Assembly (NCBI RefSeq): GCF_014268755.2
Contig: NZ_CP077093.1
Coordinates: 3,956,001 to 4,020,000, forward strand
Length of the DNA: 64,000 nt
Source: Pseudomonas vanderleydeniana
Lineage (GTDB): Bacteria; Pseudomonadota; Gammaproteobacteria; Pseudomonadales; Pseudomonadaceae
Reading direction: 5' to 3'
The notes below the pieces were generated by a model. That model made no database searches and was not told the origin of the DNA. It worked only from the letters and a program-made list of their open reading frames with translations. Below, one piece after another: positions 11,134-33,156 of this stretch (positions are counted from its first letter, which is position 1; each line of letters begins with the position of its first letter). Both the position numbers and the translations under genes were made by a program.

Positions 11134-12087
11134 TCAGTGCTTGTCTTCCAGCACCTGATTGAGGACCGCGCCATCGATACTCAAGGTCGCGGTGTTCAGC
11201 ATGCCCTCCAGATAGGCCTTGGCAATCTGCTGCTGACGCTGGGCCCGCAAGGCTTCGCGCAAGCGGTCGCGCAGCTCGTCGAGAGTGGCCGTACGCGAGG
11301 GCTGCAGCTCGGTGAGCTTGACGATGTGGAAGCCCGCCGGGCTCTGCACCGGATCCGCCACCTGACCGACCTTCAGCCGCGACAACGCCCCACGCACTTC
11401 CGGCACCAGTTGCTGCAGCGGCTGCAACCCGGTATCCCCGCCTCGCTTGGCGGTTTCGCGGTCCTGGGAGTACTGGGTCGCCAACGCGGCGAACTCACCC
11501 GGCGCGACCTGGGCCTTGCGGCTCAGTTCCACCGCCTGTTTGCGCACACTTTCCAGGGACTGCGGATCGGACACCGCCAGGAAGATCTGGCTGACCCGAT
11601 ACAGCGCCGGCGTTTGCCACTGCGACTTGCCGCTTTCATAGGCCTGCTGCAGCTCCTCGGCATTCGGGTAGTCCGCCGGTACCTGGCTGACCGACGCCAG
11701 GTAGTTGCGGAAGACGATCTGCTCAGTGGCCGCCCGGGTCTGCTGCTCGATTTCCGGACGCTGGCGCCAGCCCTGGGCATCGGCCTGTTCGAGCACCGCC
11801 TTCTCCGCCAGGCGAGTGCGGATCCAGCTCTCCAGGGCGCCGCGGTTGGTGCGCAATTGCTCGCGCGACTCCGCTGGCATGGCTGCGAACAGTGCTTTCA
11901 GTTCCTCCGGCGCCACTTGCTGGTTGCCCAGCCGGGCCACCGCCGGAGCACTCGCTGCGGGTGGCACGACGGCCGGGGCCGGCTGCACCGCCGCCACCGG
12001 ATCGTTACCCGGACGCATGGCCAGGGCGACGGCCCCGACCAGCACGGCCAGCGCACCCGCGCCGGCCAGCAGGCTGCCTTTCTTCAC
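11134..12087 (-). CDS. Membrane-anchored parvulin-type peptidyl-prolyl isomerase (PpiC/SurA-like)
   Basis: This 317-residue periplasmic folding factor has one N-terminal membrane anchor (MKKGSLLAGAGALAVLVGAV) and an Ala/Pro linker. Next come a SurA-like N-terminal chaperone region (LKALFAAMPAESREQLRTNR, WIRTRLAEKAVLEQADAQGW) and a rotamase domain with FAALATQYSQDRETAKRGGD and ADPVQSPAGFHIVKLTEL. Its ATG overlaps the stop of the YbjN gene by 4 bases, so it belongs to the same operon. It could fold the TPS adhesin or the porin in the periplasm. A PPIase at the same place in the P. aeruginosa pdt locus (recalled) supports a functional link. Confidence 0.88.
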   Translation of the reverse strand: MKKGSLLAGAGALAVLVGAVALAMRPGNDPVAAVQPAPAVVPPAASAPAVARLGNQQVAPEELKALFAAMPAESREQLRTNRGALESWIRTRLAEKAVLEQADAQGWRQRPEIEQQTRAATEQIVFRNYLASVSQVPADYPNAEELQQAYESGKSQWQTPALYRVSQIFLAVSDPQSLESVRKQAVELSRKAQVAPGEFAALATQYSQDRETAKRGGDTGLQPLQQLVPEVRGALSRLKVGQVADPVQSPAGFHIVKLTELQPSRTATLDELRDRLREALRAQRQQQIAKAYLEGMLNTATLSIDGAVLNQVLEDKH

Positions 12088-12566
12088 AGGGTCGCCTCCT
12101 CCTCTTGCACCACCGGCGCGGCGGTGGCCTGGGCCTGCAACTGCGCGCCCTGCTGGCTGTATTCACGCAGGTAGACGATGAACTCCTGCAGCAGGCGATC
12201 CCACAGTTCCAGGTTGGCGCGCAGGTAGTTGACGCTGACACCGGCGGCGACCACGACGTCCATTTCCATCACCAGGAACTCGCCCTGCACCGACAACCGA
12301 GCGAAACGCCGCGAAGCGTTCCACAACTCGGCCAGGCCAACCGGCAGCTCACCCTGCACGCGCAGGGCGCAGCTGTAGGTGAAGTCGACATAACCGCCCT
12401 CCTGCACCGAGGGATTGCCGAAGCGCACGGCGTAGCCAATGCCCTGGCTGGCGCTGAGCAGTTGCACGATACCGTTCTGGTCGGTGTGGTTGACCCGGTA
12501 GCCGGCGCCTTGCAGCAGTTCGGTCAGGCTGTCGGGAGTGACTTGCTCGATCAGTTGTTCGCTCAT
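12084..12566 (-). CDS. YbjN domain-containing protein
   Basis: This 160-residue protein has no signal peptide and carries the YbjN-like fold (type III secretion chaperone-like). MSEQLIEQVTPDSLTELLQG is followed by a beta-sheet core (GYAVRFGNPSVQEGGYVDFT, ARLSVQGEFLVMEMDVVVAA) and a C-terminal amphipathic helix, ending in a variable Ala/Gln tail. AGGAAG lies 7 bases before the ATG at 12566; a longer form from 12587 has no comparable site. In TPS clusters of this type its role is unknown. A chaperone or regulator of the neighbouring envelope proteins is a guess. It overlaps the isomerase gene (ATGA). Confidence 0.75.
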   Translation of the reverse strand: MSEQLIEQVTPDSLTELLQGAGYRVNHTDQNGIVQLLSASQGIGYAVRFGNPSVQEGGYVDFTYSCALRVQGELPVGLAELWNASRRFARLSVQGEFLVMEMDVVVAAGVSVNYLRANLELWDRLLQEFIVYLREYSQQGAQLQAQATAAPVVQEEEATL

Positions 12567-12583
12567 GGATATTCTTCCTTGTG

Positions 12584-13225
12584 TCATGGATTCAGGGATG
12601 CGTGGGTCGCATCGAACTGGTTCTTGTAGAGGTCATCACCAAAGGCCTGGGCCATTTCCTCGAACTTGACCCGGGCGCTGCCGGCGAACGGCTGGCGGAT
12701 CTTCATCACCTCGGCCACGTCGATCTTCTCGTAGGCGGCGAGGATCTCCTTGGCGACCCCGTACATCTGTTGATTCTTGGCTGAACATTGCTGCACTTGT
12801 GTGTCACGCTCGGCCAACTGTCCCTGCAACTTGGCGCGTTCGGCCTCCTTGGTCTTGGCCATCACCAGCAACTCGTCATAGGCTTTCTTGTACTTGCCCA
12901 ACTGCTCGTTGGCCGCCACCGAGAAAGCCTGCGCCTGGCTCTGCAGGGCCTGCTGCTGACCGGCCAGTTGCTCGCTGAGGCCCTTGGCCTTGGCCAGCTC
13001 GGCGGTCAGTTGCTTGATCTGCGCCTGGGCGGCCTTGGCCTGGTTCTCGGCGGCAATCCGTGCCGCGCTGGCCTGGGCCTGCTCGCTCTGCAACGCCTGC
13101 AACTGCTGGGTGGTGCTGCGCAACTGGGTCCGCAGGCGCTCCTCCATGCCTTCGGCGCTGGCGCCGTGGGCAGTGAAGAGACCAACGGTCAGCAGGCACA
13201 ACGCTGCCGGGATTCGCCTGTTCAT
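12584..13225 (-). CDS. Periplasmic coiled-coil protein of the TPS/TonB cluster
   Basis: This 213-residue protein has a signal peptide (MNRRIPAALCLLTVGLFTAH, cleavage near ASA-E at about residue 25) and a long Ala/Gln/Lys-rich coiled coil over about residues 28-150. A globular tail carries CSAKNQQMYGVAKEILAAYE and a conserved-looking VAEVMKIRQPFAGSARVKFE. The tail and overall design suggest a periplasmic spacer or scaffold. It lies between the porin-like gene and the YbjN gene with 17-18 base gaps, so it is co-transcribed. GGAG precedes the ATG. I do not recognise a named family; a homologue occupies the same spot in the P. aeruginosa locus as far as I recall. Confidence 0.75.
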   Translation of the reverse strand: MNRRIPAALCLLTVGLFTAHGASAEGMEERLRTQLRSTTQQLQALQSEQAQASAARIAAENQAKAAQAQIKQLTAELAKAKGLSEQLAGQQQALQSQAQAFSVAANEQLGKYKKAYDELLVMAKTKEAERAKLQGQLAERDTQVQQCSAKNQQMYGVAKEILAAYEKIDVAEVMKIRQPFAGSARVKFEEMAQAFGDDLYKNQFDATHASLNP

Positions 13226-13243
13226 GGGAGTTCTCCTTCGTGC

Positions 13244-14941
13244 TTAGAAGCGCGTGTTCAGCTCAAGTTGGAAGACATCGACCTGGAACGGATCGCCATA
13301 GACTTCCTCGGCACTCAACCAGCGGGCCGAGGCGACGATGTTCTTGTCCAGGCTGTAGTTGCCGCCGATGAAGTAACCCTTGGCGTTGGTGCCGCCCAGG
13401 TGGAAGGAGGAGTCGTTGAAACCGTCCGGCAAGGCATCCGGCTGGATGTACTTGTAGCCGGCGTAGAGGTTCCAGTCGCCCTTCTTCTTCAGTTCCAGGG
13501 CATTGCCGAGGGTGAATTGCATCATCAGCGCACTGCCACCACTTTCGAACTCGCCATTGCTGTTGATGTTGTTGACGATCTGGCCTTCGGAGCGTTTGAG
13601 CATCTCGCCCTTGTCGTAAGCCAGGTTATGAATGAAGTTGGCCTGGCTGCGCAGCTTGAAGTCTTCAGGCAGTTGCGTGTCCCAGGCCAGGTTCAGGTCC
13701 AGTACGTTGAACTCCGAGGCCAGGCCCAGGTATTGGGGCTGCGGCGTCAGGTTCGGGTTGGTCGGGTTCGGCGTGATATTGCGCAACAGGAATACGCTGT
13801 TGCCATGCTGCATGAACGCCAGGCGCGTACCGTCGGTGTCGCAGCCGGGCTGCCCTTCCCAAGGTTTGCAGGGGCTGGAACGCTTGCCTTCGATATCGTT
13901 GAAGCTGTAGTAGGCCGCCGAGCCCTTGAGGCTGTTGTCGGCGTTGATCTTCCAGTTGGCGCCGATCTGCCCACCGATCAGCCATTTGTTCTGGCTGTCG
14001 GCCTTGTCGACACCGTTGCTGGTTTCCGAGTCCGAGGTGTACTCGACCGGGAATGCGCCGAGGGTGCCGAACAGCCCCCATTCGCTGTTGAGCTTCTGGT
14101 TGAACACCGCCGCCACCCCGTCGAAGTTCAGGTCCGGCGAATACATCATGTCGGTGGAGTAGAACGGGTTGGCAAAACGCCCGCCAGTCACGGTCAGGCG
14201 ATCGGAGGGTTTCCAGCTGATGTAGCCCTGGTCGAGCCAGATGCTCTTCTTGGCGAAGCCGCCCCCCAGGGTCTGGGTGGTCGAGACCGGGTTGTTGTCG
14301 GAGCCGGTGCCGATGCGCACGCCGGCCATCCACTCCGGCGCCAGTACCGCTTTCATGCCCAGACGGGCGCGCAGGCGGAACAGGTTCTCGCGATCCTCAC
14401 GGCTGTTGAGCAGCGGCGGAAACTGGGTGTTGGAGAACCGGTTCACATCATAAGGCGAACCGCTGTTGATCTTCGCATAGTCGACCAGGTTGTTGCTGTT
14501 GCCGCCGGAAAAGTAACGCGACTCGTCCCTCACGCGCAGGTCACCGTCAAAGGTGATACGCGATACCCAGTCCGGGAACGTGTTGGGCTGTGCCCAGTTT
14601 TCCTGCTTGGCGGTCGCCATGACCTCGGCCTTGACCTGGTCACGAATCTGATCGCGAACGATCGCCGGCACGTACTGTACCCGCACCTCTCCCGGTGCTG
14701 CCGCAGGTGCGGCGGCCGCCACGGCATTGGCCTGGCGTGCCTGTACCGCTTCCTTTTCGGCCTGGGCGATCAAGCCATCGGCCTGTTCCTGCTTGAGCAC
14801 GCCCTGCTGCACCAGCAGGCGGATCAGATTGATCGTGGCGTTCTCCGAAGGCGCGGCGGGCTGTGCCGCCACCGCCTGGCCGACCAGGGTCGCGATGACC
14901 ATGCCGACCGCCAGGGTCAATCGATTCACGTTGGAAATCAT
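13244..14941 (-). CDS. Putative outer membrane porin (Porin_5-like)
   Basis: This protein of about 565 residues has a signal peptide (MISNVNRLTLAVGMVIATLV, cleavage after AVA), a short helical coiled-coil region (LIRLLVQQGVLKQEQADGLI, residues 35-75) and then a long beta-rich domain ending in ELNTRF with a C-terminal Phe, typical of outer membrane barrels. Features such as DWVSRITFDGDLRVRDESRY, GVRIGTGSDNNPVSTTQTLG and GGRFANPFYSTDMMYSPDLN match the putative-porin family. One CKPWEGQPGC pair may form a loop disulphide. A GTG six bases upstream (14947) is an alternative start; AGGAG precedes both. It lies directly after tonB in the operon, so it may be the outer membrane partner of the motor. 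Confidence 0.82.
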   Translation of the reverse strand: MISNVNRLTLAVGMVIATLVGQAVAAQPAAPSENATINLIRLLVQQGVLKQEQADGLIAQAEKEAVQARQANAVAAAAPAAAPGEVRVQYVPAIVRDQIRDQVKAEVMATAKQENWAQPNTFPDWVSRITFDGDLRVRDESRYFSGGNSNNLVDYAKINSGSPYDVNRFSNTQFPPLLNSREDRENLFRLRARLGMKAVLAPEWMAGVRIGTGSDNNPVSTTQTLGGGFAKKSIWLDQGYISWKPSDRLTVTGGRFANPFYSTDMMYSPDLNFDGVAAVFNQKLNSEWGLFGTLGAFPVEYTSDSETSNGVDKADSQNKWLIGGQIGANWKINADNSLKGSAAYYSFNDIEGKRSSPCKPWEGQPGCDTDGTRLAFMQHGNSVFLLRNITPNPTNPNLTPQPQYLGLASEFNVLDLNLAWDTQLPEDFKLRSQANFIHNLAYDKGEMLKRSEGQIVNNINSNGEFESGGSALMMQFTLGNALELKKKGDWNLYAGYKYIQPDALPDGFNDSSFHLGGTNAKGYFIGGNYSLDKNIVASARWLSAEEVYGDPFQVDVFQLELNTRF

Positions 14942-14980
14942 TTGCACACAACTCCTGTTGAAAAGCGTGAAAGTGTTCGA

Positions 14981-15687
14981 TCAGTCCGGGCGTCGGCCCT
15001 TGAGCGATACGCGAATGGGCAACGTCAATGAAGCCGGTGTGCGCTCCTTGAAACGCGGTGCGTTCTGCAGGGACGCGATAATCCGCTCGTCAACCTTCGG
15101 CTCGCCGGTCCCCTTGACCATGGCCACCTTGAGTACATCGCCGTCCGCCGAGAGCCAGAAATCGACCTGTACCGAGAACGCCAGCCGGCGCAAATCCGGG
15201 TCGTCGCGCAGTAGGCGTTGCAGGGTCACGGCCAGGTACTGCTTGTAGGTCCCCGTCCCCAACCCGCCCCGCCGGAGCCCGCCATGCCACTGCCCTTGCC
15301 CGCACCGACGTTGAACCCGTCGTTGCCGGCCTGGGCGTCGCCGTCGATCTGCATCGGGTTGGCCAGGTCGTCCGCCGGCGACGGCGGCGCCTCTTCCTGG
15401 GGCTTGACCTCTTCCGGCTCGGGCGTCGGCTCAGGCACCTTCTCTTCCACCGGTGGATCCGGTTCCTTGGGCTTTTCCGGCTCAGGAGGCGGCGGGGGTG
15501 GCGGAGGCGGCAACGGGACGATCATCGGCACCTTCGGCGCCTCGCGTCGGACCCCACTCATGTCATGTGCCCACTGCCACAGGAACCAGGCGGCGGCGGC
15601 CCCCAGCAGCAACCCGGCGCCCCACTTCAGCAGGCGCAACGGCGACGTTTTCACGGGCTCGGGGCTGATCGGTAATTTGGCGGTCAT
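14981..15687 (-). pseudogene. tonB: TonB-like energy transducer interrupted by a single-base frameshift
   Basis: The 5' part (15687 to about 15260) encodes a TonB N terminus: transmembrane anchor LLKWGAGLLLGAAAAWFLWQ near residues 19-38, then a periplasmic Pro/Glu-rich spacer with nine consecutive prolines and repeated P-E-P-E-K blocks. The 3' part (about 15262 to 14981) in the -1 frame encodes a typical TonB C-terminal domain: TYKQYLAVTLQRLLRDDPDL, then FSVQVDFWLSADGDVLKVAM and APRFKERTPASLTLPIRVSL. One extra G in the run at 15257-15260 would give a continuous WGTGTYKQYL junction. No canonical slippery heptamer is present, so a deletion or a sequencing error is more likely than programmed frameshifting. 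It lies 2 bases after exbD. If real, the motor of this locus lacks its own TonB. Confidence 0.8.
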
Positions 15688-15689
15688 GG

Positions 15690-16115
15690 TCAGCCCTGGC
15701 TCGGTTTGCCGGTGACCAGCCCGACCTGCGACAGCTCCAGGCGCCGCAGCAGGTCGAGCACTTCGATCACTTTCTGGTACTGCACGGTGGCGTCACCGCG
15801 CACGATGATCGGAAAGTCCGGGTTCTGCGCCTTCTCGATGCGCAGGCGTTCCTCCAGCTCCGGCAGGGTCACCGGATAGGCGTCGAGGAATACCTGGCCA
15901 CCGTCGTTGACCGAGATGGCCTTGGTCTTGGCCTCGGACAGCGACACCGAGGCACTGGCCTTGGGCAAATGGATCTGGATCCCCGAGACCTGGGCCGTGG
16001 CGGTGAGGATGAACATCACCAGCACCACCATCAGCACGTCCACCAGGGGCGTGATGTTGATGCTGTCGACGGCGGCGTCTTCATCGTCGTCGTGGGAGGC
16101 GTTTACGGAAGCCAT
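15690..16115 (-). CDS. exbD: ExbD/TolR family proton-channel subunit
   Basis: This 141-residue inner membrane protein forms the ion channel with the upstream ExbB-like protein and transmits proton-motive force to TonB. A short N-terminal cytoplasmic tail leads into the single transmembrane helix, INITPLVDVLMVVLVMFILT, with the catalytic Asp in PLVDVLMV at about residue 27. The periplasmic domain has the usual VFLDAYPVTLPELEERLR and PIIVRGDATVQYQKVIEVLD. Its length is normal. It sits 15 bases after the exbB fusion gene and directly before tonB, a canonical exbB-exbD-tonB order. Confidence 0.95.
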   Translation of the reverse strand: MASVNASHDDDEDAAVDSINITPLVDVLMVVLVMFILTATAQVSGIQIHLPKASASVSLSEAKTKAISVNDGGQVFLDAYPVTLPELEERLRIEKAQNPDFPIIVRGDATVQYQKVIEVLDLLRRLELSQVGLVTGKPSQG

Positions 16116-16130
16116 GGCAGTTCCCTCCCC

Positions 16131-17963: not shown

Positions 17964-17988
17964 GCGGTGGTTCTCCGTCAGTAAAGGG

Positions 17989-19605
17989 TCAGAAAGTCGC
18001 CTGCACACTGAAGTGCAGGCGTGAGTCGTATTTCTGGGTGTTCGGGCCGTCGAGCAGCGGGTAGCCCCAATCCAGGCTGCCGGACAGCCATTTGCTCAGG
18101 CTGGCGCGTGTCCCCAGGCCGACACTGGCCAGGCTGTATTCGTCCTCCTGCTCGGGCAGGGCTTTTTCCAGGGTCAGGCGCGCGCCTTCGGCGAAGGCAT
18201 AGAAACGCCACTCCTTGACGTAGCTGCCGACAAACCTGGCCAGCGAGGGCGTGCGCAGTTCCTGGGAAAACAGCATGCCGCTGTCGCCCGAGCGCTCGGC
18301 CGCCAGATAGCCGCGGACCGAGGTCGCGCCACCGGCGGAGAATTGTTCGTTGGAAACCAGGGGGCCGGACGCCAGTTGGAAAGACGCCTTGGACGCCGAC
18401 TGCCAGTCGCTGCTGAAGGTGTAGGTGTAATTCAGGTCGCCCTTGAGCACGGTGAAGCTGGGGCTGGCGCGATAGCGCTTGTAGTCGAACTCGTCGGCGT
18501 CGCTGCCATAGCCAAAGAAGCTGCGGGTCGCTGCCACCAGGTTCAGCCCCAGGCCGAGCTGCGAGCTTTCGGTATAGCGGTAGCCGTTGTAGCCAAAGGT
18601 CAGCGGCGCGTACTTGAGCGGGATCTGGTCACTGCTGTTGCCGAACTTCAGCTCTTCCTCGAAATCCTTGAAGTCCACGCCGATGGAGAACGAGTTGGCC
18701 CAGGCACCACTGGAAGGCAAGGTGTAGATGCCCGAGACGCCATAGGAGTGGCCCTTGCCGAGCATGTTGCTGCCGCCGATGGTGGCGACGTTGCTGTCGG
18801 ACTGGTAGCCGGAGAACTGCAGGGTCCAGCGTTCGGTCAGCGGTGCGCTGTAGGAGCCGGACCAGACCTTGGCGTTGCTCTGGTCCTCGGGGGCGGTGAA
18901 GTAGGTCAGCGAGACGCTGTGCCCCAGTTGCCAGAGGTTGTCGTAACCCAGGGAGGCGACTGCACGCAGCTCCTTGGTGTCGGCACTGTAGTCGTTGTTC
19001 AGCCCAAGACTGGCGTGCCAGGGGTTCTGGTCCTCGACCTGCAGGTCAACGTCCATGGTCCCGGGCCGTTGGCCTTCGCGCACCAGCGGCATGACCTGGC
19101 GACCGGCGCCCTTGTTGAGCGCCGCCAGCTCGCTCTGCACCTTGGCGAAATCCGGTACCTCACCCTCTTTCAGCGCCGGCACGTCCTCACGAATTTCCAC
19201 CGGCGAATAGTGTTTGGCGCCCACCACGCGCACCCGGCCAACCTTGGTTTCGCTGACCTGCAGGAAGACGATGCCGCCCTCGACCTTTTGCTCGGGCAGT
19301 TCGACGAACACCGACTGGTACCCCTTGGCCTGGTAGACCTTCTGCAGGGCATCACGGGCGCCTTCGATATCGGTCAGGGCCTTCTGCGGACCGAGGAACG
19401 GATAGACCGCTTCCTCGATGTCCCGGGCCTGCAGTACGGTGTTGCCGCGCACGACATATTCGTTGACGTCCACCAGACGGGCCACCGGTGCCTCCTCGGC
19501 AGCCAGTGGTCCGGCCAGCAGGGCCAGGACCAGGCCCGCACCGACCGGCCAGGCACGTCGTGCCCCTGCCGGTCGCGCCGTCTCTTTGAAGAACAGATGC
19601 TCCAC
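17989..19605 (-). CDS. pdtB: Two-partner secretion outer membrane translocator (TpsB, FhaC/ShlB family; PdtB-like)
   Basis: This protein of about 538 residues exports the huge adhesin encoded upstream. After a signal peptide (VGAGLVLALLAGPLAAEE) come two POTRA domains (about residues 45-210), with YVVRGNTVLQARDIEEAVYP and VRVVGAKHYSPVEIREDVPA. A 16-strand barrel follows, ending in HFSVQATF with a terminal Phe. The channel-plug L6 signature reads SVRGYLAAERSGDSG near residue 428. The GTG at 19605, 5 bases after GGGGG, is the best start; a TTG at 19623 is an alternative. It lies after the PhdA-like gene and before the exbB fusion gene. Order and family match P. aeruginosa PdtB (recalled). Confidence 0.93.
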   Translation of the reverse strand: MEHLFFKETARPAGARRAWPVGAGLVLALLAGPLAAEEAPVARLVDVNEYVVRGNTVLQARDIEEAVYPFLGPQKALTDIEGARDALQKVYQAKGYQSVFVELPEQKVEGGIVFLQVSETKVGRVRVVGAKHYSPVEIREDVPALKEGEVPDFAKVQSELAALNKGAGRQVMPLVREGQRPGTMDVDLQVEDQNPWHASLGLNNDYSADTKELRAVASLGYDNLWQLGHSVSLTYFTAPEDQSNAKVWSGSYSAPLTERWTLQFSGYQSDSNVATIGGSNMLGKGHSYGVSGIYTLPSSGAWANSFSIGVDFKDFEEELKFGNSSDQIPLKYAPLTFGYNGYRYTESSQLGLGLNLVAATRSFFGYGSDADEFDYKRYRASPSFTVLKGDLNYTYTFSSDWQSASKASFQLASGPLVSNEQFSAGGATSVRGYLAAERSGDSGMLFSQELRTPSLARFVGSYVKEWRFYAFAEGARLTLEKALPEQEDEYSLASVGLGTRASLSKWLSGSLDWGYPLLDGPNTQKYDSRLHFSVQATF

Positions 19606-19680
19606 ACCGCCCCCTTGATTCAAGAAATGGCCCCGCGCTGCCGGGGCTTCATGGCCGGGGCTGGCGCCCCTGGCGTTTGT

Positions 19681-20292: not shown

Positions 20293-20393
20293 GTCCTCCC
20301 CTCCAGCATTCCCTGCAACCGTTGGAAAACGGGGCCTGACGCCCCCTTGCCCGTTCTACATATCCAAGACAGGGCTGGCCTTGTGCTACCGAA

Positions 20394-20408
20394 CTTTTGT
20401 CACAAAAG
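20394..20408. promoter_or_regulatory. Palindrome upstream of phdA (candidate operator)
   Basis: CTTTTGTCACAAAAG is a perfect inverted repeat with 7-bp arms about 100 bases upstream of the phdA start. Phd-type antitoxins usually bind short palindromes in their own promoters, so autoregulation by PhdA is a testable possibility. Confidence 0.4.
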
Positions 20409-23600: not shown

Positions 23601-26600
23601 CATCACCCAGGACTGTTCCGCTCGTACCTCGCGCCCTGGCCTGGTTGTAGGGATCGTTGATGGAGGTGGCTGTCGATGAATGACCAGCGGTATAGACACC
23701 ATAAAGCGATTCCATTTTCAGATCGCCACCTGCCAGCAGCTCAAGATCTCCCGTACCGGTGCGGATCACGCTGAAGCGCTGGCTACCGGCGACCAACTGA
23801 GATTGACCGATCGCCTTGCAGAACGTGGGGTTTTCCGTGCAAAGCTCAGGATAACCAATGGCGTCAAAATCGATGGGTTGCCCGGCCAGGCTGGTATCAC
23901 CCGCCCAGTTCAGTGAACCCTCCTCGGTCCAGACATAGCTGGTGGCGGCCTTGCAGAACGTCGGGTTGTCCGTGCATAGCCCTGGGTAACCGATGGCATC
24001 AAAATCGATGGGTTGGCCAACCAGGCTCGTATCGCCAGCCCAGTTCAGCGAACCCTCCTCGGTCCAGACATAGCCGCCCGGCTTGGCCTTGCCAAACATT
24101 CCATAGTGCGTATCCGCAAGGTGCAGGTCACCGTTGACCGGGTGTGGCCGCACGATACGGCTGTCGGCTGCCTCGGTGTCGGCGCCTGCCACCAGGCGCA
24201 GCGACCAGGACTGCGAACCTTCGGCCAGCATCGGCGCAATGGCCCAGATCTGGCCCTGGCGACCGGAAACCTCGGGACGCAGTTGTATCGACTCCACGCC
24301 CGCCAACAGTTTTACGTCGGTACCCGAAGGAATCAGGGCGCCACGGGATAGAACCTGATTCCCGTTCAGGACAACGGTCTGCTTCGTACCTGCGACGCCC
24401 GGTAGAGGCACACCCCTGGGCCAGGTCAGCGCCTTGAAGTTGGCCGCCATCGGAAGAATGCTGCCGGCATCCAGTTGTGTACCCGCCGCCAAAGTCTGCG
24501 ACTGGCTCAACAACGTGCCGGCGGCGAACAGGACATTGCCCGAGGCATCGCGTACGTCTGCCGCCAAAACAGTTCCAGCCGGCAACGACAGAGCCTGATC
24601 GAGTACCGCCGACACCGGCAGACGGGTTCCAGATGCCAGTTGCAAGCCCTTTATCGGCAAGTCGTAGTTCAGAGTGACGCCACCCGGGAAAGTCGTGCCA
24701 TCGGCCAGCGTCACTCCGGCACCCGGAACGACAGTATCGCCGCCATTGATGTCGATGCCTGGCAGCAAGGTCCAGCCCTTGTCGTCCTGAGTCGCTGGTG
24801 GCGGAGCGAACCCATCGTTGATACTGCCGTAGATATTCAGGTCGCCACCTGCCCGGAAGGTCAGGCTGCCGACTTCACCCGAACCGTAGACCCCGGTCTT
24901 CCGGGTGTTCGGATTCACACTGGCATAGCGATAGCCCGACAGGTCGATATCACCTTGCACCACCAGGTCGCCGTCCGGCGTCGCGCTGACGATCTCCACC
25001 CCGGGACGCAGATGGAAGGCGTCGGCGTAGGTGGCGTTGTTCAGGCCCGCCAGCTTGCCCTGCATCAGGCTGCTATTGGCCAGGGCCGCATTGATGAACG
25101 CGGTGCTCTGCAGGTGCTTGGCGTCCAGGTAGGCCTGGTCGATGATCTGGTAGGGACGGCCGCTGGCCGCCGGGTCGGTACCGTAGGCCGCATCGTCATA
25201 GCGCCAGGTACCGTTGACGGCAATCGAGCGTGCCCCCTGGATGGTCAACGGGCCGCTGGCATCGATGGCAATATCGCCGCCGGTGACGCCGCCCAGGCGC
25301 GGAGCGTTCAGTTCCAGGGTGCCACGAGCGCGGCCATCGTTCTGTCCCGGCAGGTTGCCCAGGGCCACATCGGTGCCGTGGCGCAGGTCGATACGCGCAC
25401 CACTGCCCAGGGTCAACTGCCCATTACCCGAATTGAGTTCGACGATCGCCCGGTTCGGCGAATCGATGATCTTGCCGTAGCTGTCGACCCGCAGGCGGGT
25501 GCCGTGGGCATCGAGTACCGCACTGCCATCAAGGGTCAGGCCATTCTTCGCCGACAGCCGAATACTGCCGACCCGCTCACCGCTCGCATCGACGGTGCCG
25601 TTCACACGCAGGCTGCCGTTGTCGATGGAGACGGTCACGTCCCCCGCCTTGAGTCCGTCGCCAATGGTCAGGTCACCCTGCTTGAGCTGGAAGCTGCGCG
25701 AGCCCGTGACCTGCCCGTCGTTCAGACGCTGGTTGAGGGCGGCGAACTGTTCAGTGAGCGTCCCTGTCGTACCCAGTCGTTGGGCCTGGATCTCGACACC
25801 CCCAGCCGTGTAAGGCATCAGGGTGCCGCCCGCGTCGTAATAGCCGCTGCTGGAACCCAGGATTCGCCCCTGCAGGTCAACGATGCCGGCCAACGCATCC
25901 AGGGCCACCGCACTCAGGGTTCCGGCCTGGTTGTACTTGGCCGACAGATCGATACGCGAGCCCGAGGCCTGATGGATATTGCCGTTGCGACTCTCCAGCT
26001 TGACGCTGCCACCCCAGCCGTACTTGGTCACATCGTTGAAGACGATGGCCCGCCCGGCCACGTCGATCAGTGCGTCATCCGTCAACACCACATCGCCGGT
26101 CGCCCCCAGGCTGACCTTGCCACTGGGCAGGACCACGGCGCTGGCCAGGCGGATGCTGCTGCCCTGCAGGGCCAACTCGGCGCCCTGCCCCTTCACCTCG
26201 CCAACGACGGCCCCCGACGACGAGACATCGATCGCACCACCGGCAGTGATGCGGTTCACTGAACCTGCCTCCCCGGTCATCAGTGGTGTCAGGATGTTCA
26301 GGTTGCCGCCGCTGTACTGGAAGCCCTTGCCCGCCTCGTAGGCGCCCTGGCTCTGGTAGACCGAAAGACTGCCCTTGTGGTTGGCGGTGATGCGCTCGCT
26401 GGCATTGAGATTGACGTTGGTGAAACCCAGTACCAGGCGGTCGAAGCTTTTCACGGTATTGGGCTGGGCGAAGTCGCCGTAACCGAACTCGATGCGTTCG
26501 GCCTTGATATCCAGGCGTCCGCTGCCGGTTCCCGCCCCACCGGCGATCACCGAACCGGCCGGTTTGTCCGAACCCTGCCAAATCAGGTTGGCGGTATGAA

Positions 26601-29600
26601 TGGTCGCCACGTCTGCGGCGCCACCCGCACCATAGATGGCCGGAGTGGACAGCATCAGATTGCTCAGGCGCGACTTGCCAGTCTGTGCGTCATAGGTATC
26701 GAGCGTCGTGGTGCCGTAGAAGTTGAACGCATCACGGGCCGACAACTGCAAGGTTTCCAGGGCTGGAGCGCCATACTGGCTATCGCCCTTGAGCAAACGA
26801 TCGAGCACAGCCTGGTTGAGTGTCAGGCCGGAAGGCAGCCGGCCGCCGGTTGCCGCCCCCAGCAGGGCCTCGGGGCTGCCCACGTTGATATTGTTCAAGG
26901 CGAGTGTCAGGTGACGAGTCCCATAGCGAACCTGGTCATCCAACTGGAAGTCGCCACTGGTTGCCGCAACGATACTACCTTGCGAATAGAGTTCAGTATG
27001 CCCCGCGCAGGGTGCGCTGGTACATTTGCCAATCAGGATACCGCCACCTTGGGTATCTTCGAGTAACTGAACATTCAGCAACCCGTTGGACACCGCCAGC
27101 ATGTTGGCAACGCTGTAGATGAAGCCGTCCCGCGCATCATAAGCTGCATTACCGTGCCCCAGGGCATTGATCGAGGCACCTTGCTCCAGAACGATGTCCC
27201 CGGTGCTGCTCACCAGGAATACTTCAGGCGCGGACAAGGTGGCACCGTCACGCAAGACAATACTTTTCGACGTATTCGACATCTGGATGATGTTGCCACC
27301 CTGACCGTACAAGACCGTCGCCAGGCCGCCGATGGTCAGTCGTGCGGCGGCCAAGGAGTTGAGGCTTTGCGCATCCAGTGTTACACCATCGAATTGTGGC
27401 GTGGCCTGTTGCCCAGCGCCGACGATTTCAATCTGTGCGCCTCCGTTGCCCAGCACCGCAACCGTTCCGCCATACCCTCCGGGTGCCGCCTCGAACTTGC
27501 CGATACCCTCGAAGGAGAAGGCATTCTCACCGCCCCCCTTGAGCAGATCCAGTTTGAGTGTCTTGGCATCGGCCGCCAGCATGGCCCGGGGTACACCCAG
27601 CCGTACGGCATCCGCCAGTGCGAATTGGGCGTAGCTGGTCTCGTTGTACTGTGAATATCGGCGCAGAACGTCGCCAGAGGTCAGGATGATCTGGCTGGCG
27701 ACCGCATTGTTGATGCCGGTGTTTGCGATCGACAGTCGACCCGAAGTCGCCCATGAGCCGTTGTTCAGCAACTGGGTGATGCCTGTCGACCCGCCGCTGG
27801 CCAAACCATTGAGTTCGACACGGAATGCGCCTGGCAACAGGGCATAAGTCGAAGGCATCAGGGTATAGGTGCCCGCCGCCAGGCCAGGCACGCCTGCGCC
27901 GATGGTGATCTGCTGCCCCAGCATCGGATCGACGGCACCACCCTCGGGAGCGATGGGAGCATACCCCGGCTGCACGCCAGGCACGATGGCATAGATCGGG
28001 TTGGTCGCCAGCCCCGGCAGGGTGAACGAACCATCCGCGCCGATTTGCACCAGGGGGTTGAAGCGCGCATCGGTAGAGCCACCGCGGCCGGAGATGAAAC
28101 CGGCACCCAGCAGGTCGCCTCCACCGGAAAGGTCCAGCGTTGCGTCAGGCAGTACCGCAACGGACTGGCCGCCCAGGGAGACACCGACCTGCAACCCGGC
28201 GTTGTTCGTCGGTGTTCCGCCCTGTCCCAGGAACACCACTTCCTTGCCGGCGTAACGGTAGGTCTGACCATCGAAGGTACCACCGTAGGGTAGAACCAGA
28301 CCCTTGCCGCTGACCGAAGTCAGGCTGCCCGGCATCAGCTTGACGCTGGTGGTACGGCCGATGAGGCTGTCTGGAGCCGAAGTGCCAATCTCGAGCAACC
28401 CCAAAGGCGCGCGGACCACCCCGCCCTGCACGATGTTCGCTGCCGTCAGTTGCAGATAACCGAAGGCCGAATAGGGAATGGCCGGCGCTGCGTCGGAAGT
28501 CCTGGCAATGGTCAGGGTGCGAGCGGGGTCGAACAGCATCCCATTGCTGTCCTGACCCCAGCCATAGCCGGCCACGACTCGTGCACCAACGCCAGTACCG
28601 GGATAGATCTGCGCTGCGCGAAGCGTCATGTCGCCCTGCGTCAGCAACTGTGTATTGATACGTTTGACGATCGCATCCTCCACGGTACCGGCCAGGAAGC
28701 GCAGATCACCTTGACTGTTCAGGTCAACCCGGTCAAAACCTCGACGCTCGAAGTCGGCCAGTGCCCCATTTGCCTGGCGAATACTGGTCTTGGTGCCGAA
28801 AACCACACTGCCACGCACATCGAGTATCGACGAGTTCGTGGTGAAGATCGCCTGGGTCGCGCGCTGGGAGGGGTTACCCTTGGCAGGCAGTATGGGGCTG
28901 GTATACAGGTCCCGCGAGTCGGGCTTGGCCAGCAGGCCACCGAGCAAGAGATAGGGAGCCGACAGGTTCACATGCGAGCGATCGGCGGCCCCTTCGGTCA
29001 TCGCCAGGGCCCCGCTATACAGCCGCAGGCTCTGCCCCATGTTCAACGAGACGTCACCGTCGAAACTGATCAGGCCGTTACTGAGCAGCGCCAGATTGTC
29101 GAAACCACCGGCACCGACCTGGTCCACACCCAGTGCACCGTGGCCATAGGACAACGAGCCGGCGGCGCCCTCTGGCGTATCTGCCAGGGCCACGGACTGC
29201 CGAGTCTGGCCGATCACCAAGTCGCGAACCTGCAGAACCCGGTCAGTGACCGAACTCTTGAGATAACCGGGGGTTTCCAGGGCAACCGACAAGGTGCCAC
29301 CCGCCGCACCGACACCGCCGGCACGGGCATTGAAGCTGCCATCCAGGTACAGGCCGTTATTGGAGGCAAAGGCAATGCTGCCACCGTTGCTGGCGACCAG
29401 GGTGCTCCCCTGCCCGGGAATATCGAGCAGGGCCTGGGTGCCCGATGCTTCCAGTCGGGCCCCCTCACGCACCACCACGAACAGATCCGCAGCCTTGGCG
29501 ATACCGGTCACCGGATCCAGATCACCACCGATGCTGATCTGCCCACCATTACGTACCACGCCATAGGTTCTGCCAGCCGCATCGGTACCCGTCGCCGCGC

Positions 29601-32600
29601 GCGCGGCGACATCGATCAAGGCATGCTCGCCCAGCCATATGGAGCGACCGTGGCCGATGGCATTGACCTTGTCGACATCCTGATCGGCCGGTTTGATTCC
29701 ACCCAGGCTGACCTTGCCGCCCCAGGCATTGAGCGTCCCGTCCAGGGTCAACTGACCGATACTGTTGAGTGCAATGGACTGGCCCGGATCAACCGAAATG
29801 ACCGCACCGCGTCCCACGGTCAAGGCCGTATTGGCCATATCCGCAGCGGCGCTTTGGACGGTGCCGGCATTCAGGCTCAGGCTGGCACCCTTGCGCTGTG
29901 TCAACACCCCCTTGGCAGCGTCGTTCTGGTAAAGCTCCGGTGTCCAACGCTCCAACAGTGTCGCTGGAGAGGCTCCGGACGGTGTATCGCCGGCCTGCTC
30001 TCCAAGCCGATAGACCGGCATGGTCACAGCGACCTGGGTATTGTCGGTGACCGTCAGCCCCTGATTGCCGGTGATGTCATAGGCCGAGAACCCCTTGTTG
30101 AAGAAGTCGCCAGCCAATTGCAGGGTACCGGCAGCTGTCGGTGTCGGGCTGTTGCCGATCTGTACCTTGCCGGCCTGCAGTTTCAGGGTGCCGCCACCAT
30201 TGACGCCGTAGCCGCGCAGTTCGCCGTCGAGCGTCAGGTTGCCCACGGCGGTGGAGTTGCCCAGGTTGGCAGCGAGGGTGACATCGCCTCCCTTGCCACC
30301 GCTGAGCTTGCGATTGTTGAGGATAGCGGCCCCCGAGGATACATCGACCAGGCTGCCAGCCCGAAACATCACGTCACCAGAGCTACGCAGTGAAACCGAA
30401 CCGCCATTGATATAGGGCAACCGACTGTTGTCGCCATCCAGTGCCAGGTTGCTCCACAGTCCACTGGTATCGAGTTTCATGCCTGTTGCGATATCAACCA
30501 CGGCCTTCTGGCCGGTCGGAGGCTGAATGATCTGATCGATCAGGCCCTGAGTCGGGTTTGCCGAGCTCACCTGATTGAGCACGTTGCCCAGGCGCAAGCT
30601 GCCGGAATGGGCTGTCAGGTTGGCATTGACCCGCACCTGCGGCCCGTACAGGGTGATATCCCCGCCATTGCCTACTGTCAGGTCACCGTTGACCTGGATC
30701 TGCTGCTTGGCCGCCACCTTGATGGCGCCGAGCTGGAAGCCGTTGAGCTGGTCGCTGTCGAGGTACATCGTGCCCTGGCGATTGGCGGGCAAGGCAGTGT
30801 CCAGGTCCAGTCCGGCGGCGATCTGCTCGACGCCCTCGCCGATCTGTACCTGGTCCGCCATGGCATCCAGGCTGTAGCGCAAGGTCCCCGTCGTCTTGTC
30901 ATAGATCGGCGTGTACTTGCCGAATATCAGCTGCGCCCGCTGGGGAACGGCGTTGCGCGATTGCTGGTAACCATCGAGGTTGAGATTGGGCGCCAGGTTC
31001 TGGCGGTCGCCCTTGAACACCTCACTGACAATCTGGCCTTCCAGCACCGCATTGCTGGTACCGATCACCAGCTTGCCGGCATCGCGGCCCACGGTGTAGC
31101 CCGATTCATAGCGCTGTTGCTGGGCGATCATCGGGTTGTAGAAATACTCGGTCTGCCCCCAGCGGGCACTGCTGGACTCGAAGCCCTTGTAGATCCCCGA
31201 ATAGAGAATGTCTCCGGGAGCCCGGGACAGTTCATACAGGCGACCATCGGGCCCCTTGAGCCAGGTCTGCTGGATGTAGCCGGCCTGCACGTCGACGGTA
31301 CCGCCGGACAGGTTGAGCTGCGCGCCCTGCTGGGTCACCACATCCTTGCCGGTGAAGGTCAAGGTACCGCCCTGGGCCATCCACTCGCCAATGCTGTGAC
31401 CCTGGGTACCCAGATACCCGCCCACTTCCAGCAGGCCGCCTGCCGTGTACCAGCGGTCGGTGGCATAGCCGTTGGTGCCGGCCGGGACGAATACCAGCTC
31501 ACGCAGATCGACCCAGACATCGTTGTTGATCAGCTTGCCGCCGTCACGGTTGACCGGCGCATCGCGTTGCTCGTTACCCTGCACGTTGATCTTGATGTTG
31601 TTGGACTCCATCGAGACCTTCACGCCGACCGCGCCGGAAACGTCGACCACCGCGCCATCACGCACCAGGCTGCGCTGGGCAGCGCTGACCGCCACCTGGC
31701 CACCGGTGGCAAGCGTGATGGAGCCGTTCTGGAAGTCGACGTTGCCACCACTGACAATCTCGATCCGCGACTGATCGGTGCGATCACTGACCGTGCTCAG
31801 GTTGTTGAAGAACCCTGTGATCAGGGTGTTCGGCAAACCGTCGAGGCCGCTCAGGCCGTTGTTGCGCTGGCTGTCGAGGGCCGTGGTATCGGTGTTTTCC
31901 AGCAGGATCGCGGTGGTGCTGCCCTGCCCCAGGGTCACGCTGCCAGTGGTATCGGTGGCGGAGTTGAGCAGGTGGATGGTGCCCCGGGTGTCGACCGAGG
32001 TGCTGGCCAGCGCCACACCGTTCTGTTGCACCTGGTGCCCGGTCAGGGTGATGTCGCCGGTGGAGGCCATGATCAGGCCGCTGTTGGTCACCTTGCCGGC
32101 GGTACTGCCGGCTTTGAGCGAAGTCGCCACCTCATTGCCACGGGTGGTCGAGCGCTGGTTGCTGCTGGTACCGACACCGCGCCGGATGTAGAAGCTGTCA
32201 CCCGCGGCCAGGGTGGTCTGGCCCTTGGCGGTGACGATGGTCCCGGCGTTCTCCACCTCGGAGCCGAGCAATAGCGCATAACCGCCGGACTCGGTCGAAG
32301 AGGTGGGCGCCAGGGTCTGGATGATCGCCCCGCGCTGCACCTCGACCTTGCCTGCCGCATCGGTGAAGGTCGGCTGGGTGCCATTGGTGTCGACGTAGAT
32401 GCCCCGCTGGGTGAACTGATCGTCGGTGATGGTTGCGGCAGCGGCCACCAGGTTGCGCACGTTGACCTGGCTGGAACCGCTGAAGACCACACCGTTGCGA
32501 TTCATGATCATCACGGTGCCATTGCCCTTGACCTGGCCCTGGATCTCGCTTGGGCGTGCCAATGGGTCGTTGACACGGTTGAGCACCGCCCAATTCGACT

Positions 32601-33156
32601 GCTGCTGGAAATCCACCGTGGTGTTGCGCCCGACGTTGAAGGTTTCCCAGTTGAGAATCGCCTTGTCGGCGGTCTGCTCGATGGTCACGGTGGTCTTGCC
32701 ACCGGCTTGCGTCTGGGTCGGCGCCTTGGCGTTGAGCCAGCCCTGGGTCAGGCTGTTGTCGACCTGCAGGCCGCCCTTGCCCAGCCCATCGGGGATATTG
32801 CTCAACTGACCGAGCGCTGCCTGGCGACCGGCAGCCTGGGCCGCCTGCTGGGCGGCGATGGCGGCCACGGTGCTGTTGAGGTTGCTGATCGAGCGCTGCA
32901 GCTGCTGGTTGGCACGACCCTGCTCCGCCAGGGTCGGGATACCCGGGATCTGCCCACTGTTGTTGCGCGCTGCGGTGGCGGACAGGTTGGCCCCCTTGTT
33001 GGTGAACCAGGCCGAGCTGAACGCCGTCTCCGCCTGGGCACTGCCAGCCACCATCAACAGGGCGATGGCATGGGCCAGGGGCTTGAGCCGCAGGATCGAG
33101 GAGGCGTCGTCGTGACGCCGGGCGTTGAGTCTTGCCGAGGGTTTGCAGCGCAGCAT
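20602..33156 (-). CDS. pdtA: Giant filamentous haemagglutinin-type adhesin (TpsA; PdtA-like)
   Basis: This exoprotein of about 4184 residues is secreted by TpsB and probably acts as a surface adhesin. An extended signal peptide ends at AQA-42. An Ala/Gln-rich stretch follows, then the TPS secretion domain (about 140-330) with ILNWETFNVGRNTTVDFQQ, an NPNG-type motif here NRNGVVF, and VRNLVAAAATI. Thousands of residues of beta-helix-like repeats follow (GGDVTLAANLG-type, LDLSGGGDL). The C-terminal region carries a tract with YETSYAQF, SLYYGK and FGPETASNEMPIHGLPSRFYAL blocks and ends in an Ala/Gln/Asp-rich tail without an obvious toxin domain. ATG 33156 is favoured because AAAGGA lies 7 bases upstream; GTG 33159 is adjacent. 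Cysteines are nearly absent except for short pairs. It ends at its own terminator. Confidence 0.94.
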   Translation of the reverse strand: MLRCKPSARLNARRHDDASSILRLKPLAHAIALLMVAGSAQAETAFSSAWFTNKGANLSATAARNNSGQIPGIPTLAEQGRANQQLQRSISNLNSTVAAIAAQQAAQAAGRQAALGQLSNIPDGLGKGGLQVDNSLTQGWLNAKAPTQTQAGGKTTVTIEQTADKAILNWETFNVGRNTTVDFQQQSNWAVLNRVNDPLARPSEIQGQVKGNGTVMIMNRNGVVFSGSSQVNVRNLVAAAATITDDQFTQRGIYVDTNGTQPTFTDAAGKVEVQRGAIIQTLAPTSSTESGGYALLLGSEVENAGTIVTAKGQTTLAAGDSFYIRRGVGTSSNQRSTTRGNEVATSLKAGSTAGKVTNSGLIMASTGDITLTGHQVQQNGVALASTSVDTRGTIHLLNSATDTTGSVTLGQGSTTAILLENTDTTALDSQRNNGLSGLDGLPNTLITGFFNNLSTVSDRTDQSRIEIVSGGNVDFQNGSITLATGGQVAVSAAQRSLVRDGAVVDVSGAVGVKVSMESNNIKINVQGNEQRDAPVNRDGGKLINNDVWVDLRELVFVPAGTNGYATDRWYTAGGLLEVGGYLGTQGHSIGEWMAQGGTLTFTGKDVVTQQGAQLNLSGGTVDVQAGYIQQTWLKGPDGRLYELSRAPGDILYSGIYKGFESSSARWGQTEYFYNPMIAQQQRYESGYTVGRDAGKLVIGTSNAVLEGQIVSEVFKGDRQNLAPNLNLDGYQQSRNAVPQRAQLIFGKYTPIYDKTTGTLRYSLDAMADQVQIGEGVEQIAAGLDLDTALPANRQGTMYLDSDQLNGFQLGAIKVAAKQQIQVNGDLTVGNGGDITLYGPQVRVNANLTAHSGSLRLGNVLNQVSSANPTQGLIDQIIQPPTGQKAVVDIATGMKLDTSGLWSNLALDGDNSRLPYINGGSVSLRSSGDVMFRAGSLVDVSSGAAILNNRKLSGGKGGDVTLAANLGNSTAVGNLTLDGELRGYGVNGGGTLKLQAGKVQIGNSPTPTAAGTLQLAGDFFNKGFSAYDITGNQGLTVTDNTQVAVTMPVYRLGEQAGDTPSGASPATLLERWTPELYQNDAAKGVLTQRKGASLSLNAGTVQSAAADMANTALTVGRGAVISVDPGQSIALNSIGQLTLDGTLNAWGGKVSLGGIKPADQDVDKVNAIGHGRSIWLGEHALIDVAARAATGTDAAGRTYGVVRNGGQISIGGDLDPVTGIAKAADLFVVVREGARLEASGTQALLDIPGQGSTLVASNGGSIAFASNNGLYLDGSFNARAGGVGAAGGTLSVALETPGYLKSSVTDRVLQVRDLVIGQTRQSVALADTPEGAAGSLSYGHGALGVDQVGAGGFDNLALLSNGLISFDGDVSLNMGQSLRLYSGALAMTEGAADRSHVNLSAPYLLLGGLLAKPDSRDLYTSPILPAKGNPSQRATQAIFTTNSSILDVRGSVVFGTKTSIRQANGALADFERRGFDRVDLNSQGDLRFLAGTVEDAIVKRINTQLLTQGDMTLRAAQIYPGTGVGARVVAGYGWGQDSNGMLFDPARTLTIARTSDAAPAIPYSAFGYLQLTAANIVQGGVVRAPLGLLEIGTSAPDSLIGRTTSVKLMPGSLTSVSGKGLVLPYGGTFDGQTYRYAGKEVVFLGQGGTPTNNAGLQVGVSLGGQSVAVLPDATLDLSGGGDLLGAGFISGRGGSTDARFNPLVQIGADGSFTLPGLATNPIYAIVPGVQPGYAPIAPEGGAVDPMLGQQITIGAGVPGLAAGTYTLMPSTYALLPGAFRVELNGLASGGSTGITQLLNNGSWATSGRLSIANTGINNAVASQIILTSGDVLRRYSQYNETSYAQFALADAVRLGVPRAMLAADAKTLKLDLLKGGGENAFSFEGIGKFEAAPGGYGGTVAVLGNGGAQIEIVGAGQQATPQFDGVTLDAQSLNSLAAARLTIGGLATVLYGQGGNIIQMSNTSKSIVLRDGATLSAPEVFLVSSTGDIVLEQGASINALGHGNAAYDARDGFIYSVANMLAVSNGLLNVQLLEDTQGGGILIGKCTSAPCAGHTELYSQGSIVAATSGDFQLDDQVRYGTRHLTLALNNINVGSPEALLGAATGGRLPSGLTLNQAVLDRLLKGDSQYGAPALETLQLSARDAFNFYGTTTLDTYDAQTGKSRLSNLMLSTPAIYGAGGAADVATIHTANLIWQGSDKPAGSVIAGGAGTGSGRLDIKAERIEFGYGDFAQPNTVKSFDRLVLGFTNVNLNASERITANHKGSLSVYQSQGAYEAGKGFQYSGGNLNILTPLMTGEAGSVNRITAGGAIDVSSSGAVVGEVKGQGAELALQGSSIRLASAVVLPSGKVSLGATGDVVLTDDALIDVAGRAIVFNDVTKYGWGGSVKLESRNGNIHQASGSRIDLSAKYNQAGTLSAVALDALAGIVDLQGRILGSSSGYYDAGGTLMPYTAGGVEIQAQRLGTTGTLTEQFAALNQRLNDGQVTGSRSFQLKQGDLTIGDGLKAGDVTVSIDNGSLRVNGTVDASGERVGSIRLSAKNGLTLDGSAVLDAHGTRLRVDSYGKIIDSPNRAIVELNSGNGQLTLGSGARIDLRHGTDVALGNLPGQNDGRARGTLELNAPRLGGVTGGDIAIDASGPLTIQGARSIAVNGTWRYDDAAYGTDPAASGRPYQIIDQAYLDAKHLQSTAFINAALANSSLMQGKLAGLNNATYADAFHLRPGVEIVSATPDGDLVVQGDIDLSGYRYASVNPNTRKTGVYGSGEVGSLTFRAGGDLNIYGSINDGFAPPPATQDDKGWTLLPGIDINGGDTVVPGAGVTLADGTTFPGGVTLNYDLPIKGLQLASGTRLPVSAVLDQALSLPAGTVLAADVRDASGNVLFAAGTLLSQSQTLAAGTQLDAGSILPMAANFKALTWPRGVPLPGVAGTKQTVVLNGNQVLSRGALIPSGTDVKLLAGVESIQLRPEVSGRQGQIWAIAPMLAEGSQSWSLRLVAGADTEAADSRIVRPHPVNGDLHLADTHYGMFGKAKPGGYVWTEEGSLNWAGDTSLVGQPIDFDAIGYPGLCTDNPTFCKAATSYVWTEEGSLNWAGDTSLAGQPIDFDAIGYPELCTENPTFCKAIGQSQLVAGSQRFSVIRTGTGDLELLAGGDLKMESLYGVYTAGHSSTATSINDPYNQARARGTSGTVLGDAFGGYEDLVNGSATSVYRAWYPDSGGNLILKVGGNLTGNTMDRVLTGVGRPNSADLGYDTANVGNWLWRQGSGSVNTGGQAQPTAWWINFGTYTNTAALGGSNADQMVGFTGFGTLGGGDVDVQVAGDAGILNPLSGSVLASSVNPRSQGLVVAVGSTGRVAADGSVQMTGGGDLSLRVGGALNPGSDVVLGQQNGMLVDLRGNAQLAGAALGSVALTYGIGVGFLAPGEVRALDPTRSTRAISAGGMTLVPGDATFSVSTLGDLVVQNVQDPGRASSMNATPFSRGGVNGMGQSWFSLWTEHTAIDLFSAGGNLTPYTDGTGTDAAVVYPSILRAIAANGSLYYGKAASSQLKDLDYRAPLLLAPSVTGELQFLAGDSIYASGFSVSRSGAASETMATPWRPAFAGLINGSVVVNGNNLSTDGNLAQAPAVLPLFAFGPETASNEMPIHGLPSRFYALNGDLLGVTSGRIISFQTGTPRLGQTWYEGAGPVWMMAGRDIVSSGTALGSSDSGMTDINKYTSTGNLFVHNNPNDVSIVSAGRDILYSNFTVAGPGTLELTAGRNILMEDKASITSIGAVVPGDSRPGSSIVMQAGFGANGVDYLRFVQTYLNPDNLAQAGQSLSGGKVAKTYEVELVAWLAERYGFSGTAEQARLYYATLSPEQQRIFAREVYFAELKAAGREYNQVGGPRQGSYVRGREAIALLFPQTDVAGNPITYQGDITLFGGAGVHTDFGGNIQMLTPGGGQVFGIEGAAPPSTAGVITQGSGNIQLYSLDSILLGQSRIMTTFGGSIAAWSAAGDINAGRGSKTTVVYTPPKRIYDNWGNVTLSPSVPSTGAGIATLNPIPEIAPGDIDLIAPQGTIDAGEAGIRVSGNVNIAALQVVNAANIQTQGKSSGVPMTASINTGAMTAASSAGAAASQAAEDAARAQQQASKQDRPSVFTVEVLGFGSEPVTPSRDSASHTPAYNPDSPVQVLGAGPLSEQARLRLTDEERGNLTL
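23812..24072 (-). repeat. Tandem duplicated 135-bp unit inside the adhesin gene
   Basis: Two adjacent copies encode YVWTEEGSLNWAGDTSLVGQ then PIDFDAIGYPGLCTDNPTFC and a nearly identical second copy (changes V to A, G to E, D to E). The period is 45 residues. The DNA copies differ at scattered sites, so the duplication is not brand new. Each copy carries a CX6C pair, unusual in a TPS adhesin. Confidence 0.85.

Follow-up and report, generated by a model that had tools for sequence, protein, structure and literature searches.

A Ton-Type Motor Inherited with Giant Two-Partner Secretion Proteins and a Porin in Pseudomonas vanderleydeniana and Other Pseudomonadota

In the genome of Pseudomonas vanderleydeniana, a single contig of 7.03 Mb, the stretch of 64,000 nucleotides analysed here (the window; positions 3,956,001 to 4,020,000 of NZ_CP077093.1) carries on its minus strand, at window positions 10098-33192, a block of genes in which a giant exoprotein of two-partner secretion (TPS), TpsA, and its outer-membrane transporter, TpsB, are accompanied by a Ton-type motor and by a protein of the Porin_5 family (Table 1). 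The order of transcription is TpsA, a PhdA-like protein, TpsB, an ExbB fusion, ExbD, TonB, Porin_5, a coiled-coil protein, a YbjN-family protein, a PpiC-type peptidyl-prolyl isomerase and a LysR-type regulator. An earlier reading of this DNA (the original prediction) had listed the block as an adhesin locus with a private motor; all the genes that it named are present, in the order and on the strand that it gave, and its length of 4184 residues for TpsA is that counted from the ATG at 33156, the count from a TTG being 4196. It is moderately probable that the motor is part of a distinct class of TPS, in which it serves to export, hold or tension giant TpsAs.

Table 1: Features of the block and their coordinates in the window.
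Feature	Position	Strand	Remarks
TpsA (PdtA-like), 4196 aa	20602..33192	-	TPS domain 157-421, DUF3739 3987-4097, then tail with motif PSVFTVEVLGFG
PhdA-like protein, 203 aa	19681..20292	-	DUF772; weak PhdYeFM
TpsB (PdtB-like)	17989..19623	-	POTRA_2 and ShlB barrel
DUF2341-LamG-ExbB fusion (exbB2-like), 625 aa	16131..18008	-	DUF2341 and LamG N-terminal; proton channel 477-584 (MotA/ExbB)
ExbD	15690..16115	-	transmembrane Asp (ITPLVDVL)
TonB (tonB4-like), N-terminal part	15226..15687	-	hydrophobic helix and Pro-rich linker; frame stops early
TonB C-terminal domain, other frame	14981..15250	-	TYKQYL...KGRRPD
Porin_5 outer-membrane protein	13244..14947	-	Pfam Porin_5; N-terminal helices; VRV[PQ]Y[VI]P segment
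Coiled-coil protein (PA0697-like)	12584..13225	-	signal-like N-terminus
YbjN-family protein	12084..12587	-	family match
PpiC-type peptidyl-prolyl isomerase	11134..12087	-	hydrophobic N-terminal segment
LysR-type regulator (PA0701-like)	10098..11078	-	next in block, beyond the range of the original prediction

The pair belongs to TPS by its domains: TpsA carries the TPS secretion domain (PF05860, 95.5 bits), the two relatives of solved structure that were found for it being EtpA and HxuA, while TpsB joins a POTRA domain (PF08479, 60.4 bits) to a ShlB/FhaC barrel (PF03865, 88.6 bits). These domains are shared with ordinary TPS systems such as FhaB/FhaC and HxuA/HxuB, whereas the Ton-type motor, the DUF3739 end of TpsA, Porin_5 and a TpsB clade distinct from eight other TpsBs set the present system apart from them. 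Within TpsA, 45 residues (VWTEEGSLNWAGDTSL...) are repeated in tandem almost exactly, the two copies starting at residues 3042 and 3087 (window 23812-24069).

The motor has in common with TonB-ExbB-ExbD and Tol systems the ExbB channel, the transmembrane aspartate of ExbD and, as seen in a relative, a TonB C-terminal domain of the TonB_2 type; unlike in those systems, the ExbB bears a large DUF2341-LamG part, in which LamG has a lectin-like fold, and a 2025 study names DUF2341 among the appendages of such channel proteins whose function is unknown (PMC12505986). In relatives, the channel motifs of ExbB are kept in 32 of 34 by a loosened pattern (25 before loosening), and the aspartate of ExbD in 38/38 frames of relatives by a pattern widened from a narrow first version that matched 8. 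Three relatives (L035, L240, L241) have two exbD genes in tandem after the fusion. As to tonB, the gene that had been predicted is there, while the single open frame implied for it is not found in this assembly, where it reads in two frames; since tonB is whole in 78 of the 80 Pseudomonas loci described below, the other two being cut by contig ends, the split is particular to this genome or assembly, and it cannot be told whether it reflects an assembly error or a real loss. No TonB-dependent transporter was found within the conserved gene set, in which Porin_5 is the sole barrel besides TpsB.

Gene order was surveyed in the best 80 of at least 588 relatives from named genomes, all of them Pseudomonas. 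In every one of the 80 loci, TpsB lies directly before the fusion and ExbD directly after it; in the 78 loci that are not cut by contig ends, ExbD is followed by TonB, Porin_5 and the coiled coil. The match to PA0690-PA0701 of P. aeruginosa stated in the original prediction is right, the order being that printed for that locus (PMC7035377). The distribution within the genus is patchy as judged from DUF2341, which is present in 94 of 298 Pseudomonas genomes.

That the motor and the TPS pair belong together is strongly supported by joint inheritance. Among 398 Pseudomonadota genomes, 13 have DUF2341, 14 have DUF3739 and 14 have full-length Porin_5, and these are the same genomes (six with weak partial Porin_5 matches, E 2e-34 to 7e-4, having been excluded before the count); all 13 DUF2341 genomes fall within the 14 with DUF3739 (hypergeometric 1.7e-23, a value that ignores shared ancestry), and the 14 system-bearing genomes cover 7 families and 11 genera. 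In the fourteenth, G284, the ExbB fusion is cut by the contig start and no POTRA_2 match was found. Two further draws, of 200 genomes from one order and 190 from another class (the three draws overlap), gave 23 new DUF2341 genomes, 21 of them with true fusions; 20 of the 23 have DUF3739, and exactly these 20 have Porin_5 (the copy of G940 being cut by a contig end). In total, 34 of the 35 genomes with a fusion motor carry both a DUF3739 TpsA and Porin_5; the lone exception, G726, has its fusion on a contig of 3.5 kb in a genome 84% complete and broken into 520 contigs. The proposal that the motor goes with the TPS pair therefore withstood the search for a fusion motor without the pair, 34/35 genomes having the DUF3739 TpsA and Porin_5; the converse, a DUF3739 TpsA without the motor, was sought within the 398 genomes. 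Chance neighbourhood is excluded by this co-occurrence taken with the gene order in 80/80 loci. DUF2341 alone was rejected as a marker of the system, G715 and G805 carrying it in LamG/Ig-type proteins that show no match to ExbB (the frame of G805 runs past the contig end).

The arrangement of the genes differs among lineages. In one layout TpsB directly precedes ExbB, with TpsA before TpsB, the arrangement of the window, or elsewhere in the genome; in the second, present in many other lineages, the order is TpsB, TpsA, ExbB. ExbB-ExbD-TonB-Porin_5 is the steady core, usually followed by the coiled coil, while the presence of the YbjN, isomerase, PhdA-like and LysR genes varies more. G268 and G833 carry the motor on a separate contig from TpsB and Porin_5, TpsA also being present in the genome; the genes are thus retained even when they are not neighbours. 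Several TpsAs may accompany a motor (three in G379, three in G200, two in G284), and the 20 TpsAs of the DUF3739 set from the 398 genomes have open frames of 3295-5122 codons.

The transporter, too, is set apart. A tree of 36 TpsB rows places the 28 from the motor-linked system in one clade with support 100/100, a count that includes the TpsB of the window twice and five rows labelled "other" (L117, L118, L122, L124, L247), which are TpsBs of the system retrieved by another search; the run reports six label changes and a long-branch warning, the clade of 28 being the relabelled reading. The eight other TpsBs, which come from five of the same genomes and include both further TpsBs of this one, fall outside. 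Judged from these sequences, TpsB is shown to be dedicated to the motor-linked system. The two further TpsBs of this genome (L135 and L136; G000:C1:2747576 and 4463488) each adjoin a long open frame.

At the other end of the pathway, the C-terminus of TpsA carries a strand-like tail motif, approximately P-S-[IVF]-x-T-V-E-V-L-[GS]-[FL]-G, separated from the preceding DUF3739 by a linker of 21-38 residues. The pattern matches 59 of 67 different tails from genome loci, compared with 0.03% of shuffled tails, and the next position is a glycine in 59/59 matching tails, although the pattern did not require it. Among the best 120 of 1716 TpsAs, it is present in 120/120, PdtA of P. aeruginosa included, and elsewhere in those proteins just once; in G019, TpsA terminates two residues past the end of the pattern. 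A retention, release or energy signal would be expected to look like this, being placed at the end of the protein that is last to cross. The motif may also resemble a TonB box.

A further thread leads to VreA, the sensor of PUMA3, since proteins that combine an STN domain with a C-terminal domain like that of TonB lie near some of the loci. Full-length VreA (18 rows) was found in 12 of 22 tested DUF3739 genomes and in 0 of 30 without DUF3739, in a table that ends at weak E-values and with a query drawn from four of the 12 positive genomes; among the matches listed, none is full-length in eight tested genomes of the second layout, nor in G268 and G1013. The number of VreA copies roughly follows that of the TpsAs: the two are equal in G379 (three each) and G284 (two each), whereas G200 has four VreAs for three TpsAs and G155 one for two. 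The TonB-like matches of an iterated profile had over-strong E-values, having been absorbed into that profile, and were rescored with one built from 33 motor TonB C-terminal domains only; this gives VreAs of 12 loci 31.7-75.9 bits, compared with 21.6 and 21.0 for two other Ton/Tol-type proteins of this genome, 6.6 for another and 7.1 for TonB of E. coli. Because the motor profile scores VreAs above other Ton/Tol proteins, VreA and the motor TonB are shown, at the level of sequence, to have a special domain in common, and perhaps they share a ligand. The VreA domain was modelled on TolA/TonB in 2009, when an outer-membrane partner was guessed (PMC2729926). In this genome, a full-length VreA-like match (G000:C1:4121451; STN 28.3 and TonB_2 20.1 bits, slightly below the Pfam cut-offs) is found next to genes of the sigma-70 and FecR families and of the type II secretion system (T2SS), some 130 kb away from the block. 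Small proteins near the system, with a stand-alone domain similar to the C-terminus of the motor TonB (28.8-38.9 bits), occur at L029:2399-2983, L029:16732-17328 and L028:2983-3948; the two of the three that were scanned have no Pfam match, and they are perhaps decoys or regulators.

The outer-membrane protein (Porin_5, 678.8 bits) is modelled as a 16-stranded barrel with a stalk, the architecture of OmpM, and without a plug domain, at moderate confidence (predicted local distance difference test 72.8). Among solved folds porins align best, OmpM1, a tether porin of the Veillonella outer membrane, first (about 17% of the aligned residues being identical); no fold of a TonB-dependent transporter is among the structure matches listed, which is no proof of absence, and no PDB sequence relative is better than E 0.36. 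OmpM tether porins bind cell-wall polymer through an SLH domain, whereas the Pfam scan of the whole Porin_5 protein, with E up to 0.1, gave no match to the SLH family; OmpM itself has been described as both tether and uptake channel (PMC10628300). The coiled-coil protein is modelled, from its single sequence, as one helix of about 143 residues.

The same genes in the same order constitute the locus of PdtA/PdtB and PA0691-PA0701 in the PUMA3 regulon of P. aeruginosa (PMC7035377, PMC2729926), where, in contrast to the present genome with its distant vreA, T2SS genes beside it and split tonB, vreA, the sigma factor and FecR lie next to the block. The association of TPS with a motor is itself known since 2009, when Llamas et al. 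described the TPS/ExbBD/PA0696 neighbourhood from four genera, Pseudomonas, Burkholderia, Rhodopseudomonas and Janthinobacterium, two of which have several tpsA genes for each tpsB/exbBD set (PMC2729926). The original prediction had held the role of the motor to be undescribed, which is consistent with the words "still uncharacterized" applied to exbB2-exbD2-tonB4 in 2020 (PMC7035377) and with the open-access papers searched, among which no study of it was listed. Searches by the corresponding terms found neither the joint inheritance with DUF3739 and Porin_5 nor the TpsB clade, the tail motif, the kinship of VreA with TonB or the OmpM-like fold in earlier work; these features, as deduced from sequences and models, including a nearly perfect co-inheritance, appear to be new.

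A tentative mechanism may be outlined. TpsB would export the giant DUF3739-type TpsA, driven by folding, with PpiC keeping the huge protein foldable; the C-terminal end of TpsA (DUF3739, linker and tail) would cross last and probably remain periplasmic. The ExbB fusion, ExbD and TonB would then use the proton gradient on this end, on TpsB or on Porin_5, and their action would finish export, or hold, tension or release the adhesin, while the OmpM-like Porin_5 with its periplasmic stalk and the long helical rod would brace the outer membrane. These parts differ in credibility: the motor likely acts in the export or anchoring of TpsA; Porin_5 quite possibly serves as the brace; that the tail of TpsA is the contact point of the motor is doubtful. 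In an unlikely, more specific version, the tail (~PS-I/V/F-x-TVEVLG-F/L-G) would be a C-terminal TonB box by which the motor, gripping it from the inside of the cell, pulls, tensions or ejects TpsA via TpsB, VreA with its TonB-type domain reading the same tail for the completion of export. An analogy is offered by GldLM of type IX secretion, a proton motor that powers both the secretion and the movement of the adhesin SprB (PMC8986121); the likeness goes no further than analogy, GldLM coming from a different phylum and working with a different secretion pore.

Several observations weigh against a motor dedicated to TpsA. Type V systems are regarded as independent of energy, and their cargo is translocated into liposomes when none is supplied (PMC5422565), so that the motor would have more to do with very long cargo or with force after export than with export itself, and insertion mutants in the tonB homologue, tpsA, tpsB and PA0696 of P. 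aeruginosa, with VreI overexpressed, had wild-type virulence in zebrafish embryos (PMC2729926). This genome has two more TPS loci, neither of them with motor genes beside it, and the motor of the window may be broken in this assembly, its tonB being split. One motor for many clients is not general, G155 having two motors for two TpsAs; the coiled-coil gene was undetected in four fetched loci (L024-L026, L032); the tail pattern was composed after the tails had been inspected, and eight of the 67 lack a match, at least four of these being visibly near.

Among other explanations, the motor could serve nutrient capture, TpsA binding an external substrate and the motor driving its uptake through Porin_5 in place of a TonB-dependent transporter, by analogy with HxuA-HxuB-HxuC for haem. 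The phosphate regulation of the P. aeruginosa locus suits scavenging, full-length Porin_5 accompanies the set in 34/35 genomes, HxuA is one of the two solved relatives of TpsA, and the second function described for OmpM is uptake; the 16 strands of the Porin_5 model, however, surround no plug and align best to porins, OmpM1 first, and open porins work without energy. The provision of one motor and one porin for up to three TpsAs suits a shared export machine at least equally, and the nutrient reading is considered improbable. It is also conceivable, although the chance is slim, that TPS, motor and porin merely answer one signal (PUMA3, phosphate), the motor doing general outer-membrane work: a 2016 paper places phdA to PA0701 of P. 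aeruginosa (phdA, pdtB, exbB2D2, tonB4, PA0696-PA0701) under a single promoter (PMC4971064), and the same regulon contains T2SS genes (PMC7035377). Yet the set holds in those 10 of the 22 tested genomes for which no full-length VreA was found, and in another gene order; it persists in the two genomes with the motor on a separate contig, and is present or absent together over 7 families. Finally, the motor and the OmpM-like porin might form a tether resembling Tol-Pal, stabilising the envelope during the passage of TpsA without touching it; this shares with the preferred reading the fold of the porin, but it leaves the conserved tail of TpsA and the domain shared by VreA and TonB unexplained, and is regarded as very unlikely.

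A motor working on TpsA would bear on an open question of type V secretion, namely, the passage of proteins of 3000-5000 residues through the outer membrane with no source of energy: should one TPS class possess its own proton motor, there would be different answers for different classes, and these could be put to a direct test. It would also provide a function for exbB2-exbD2-tonB4 and PA0696-PA0697 of P. aeruginosa, which a 2020 paper describes as uncharacterised or without known function (PMC7035377), and hint at the signal sensed by VreA; were the TonB-box version true, the system would represent proton-powered two-partner secretion with built-in feedback. The system is a widely conserved, little-studied machine, a variant of TPS with a probable motor.

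Some neighbouring features deserve mention. The PhdA-like gene was found in 76 of the 80 Pseudomonas loci, and its name may mislead: the DUF772 transposase domain scores 46.2 bits, above the cut-off, vs 19.9 bits, below it, for PhdYeFM. A scan of the window for Pho boxes gave 2 matches at up to 3 mismatches, compared with 3.97 expected, and hence no signal. Directly upstream of tpsA, on the same strand (window 33369-34655), lies a gene for a PBP_like_2 phosphate-binding-like protein, a position that fits the phosphate control of the P. aeruginosa locus.
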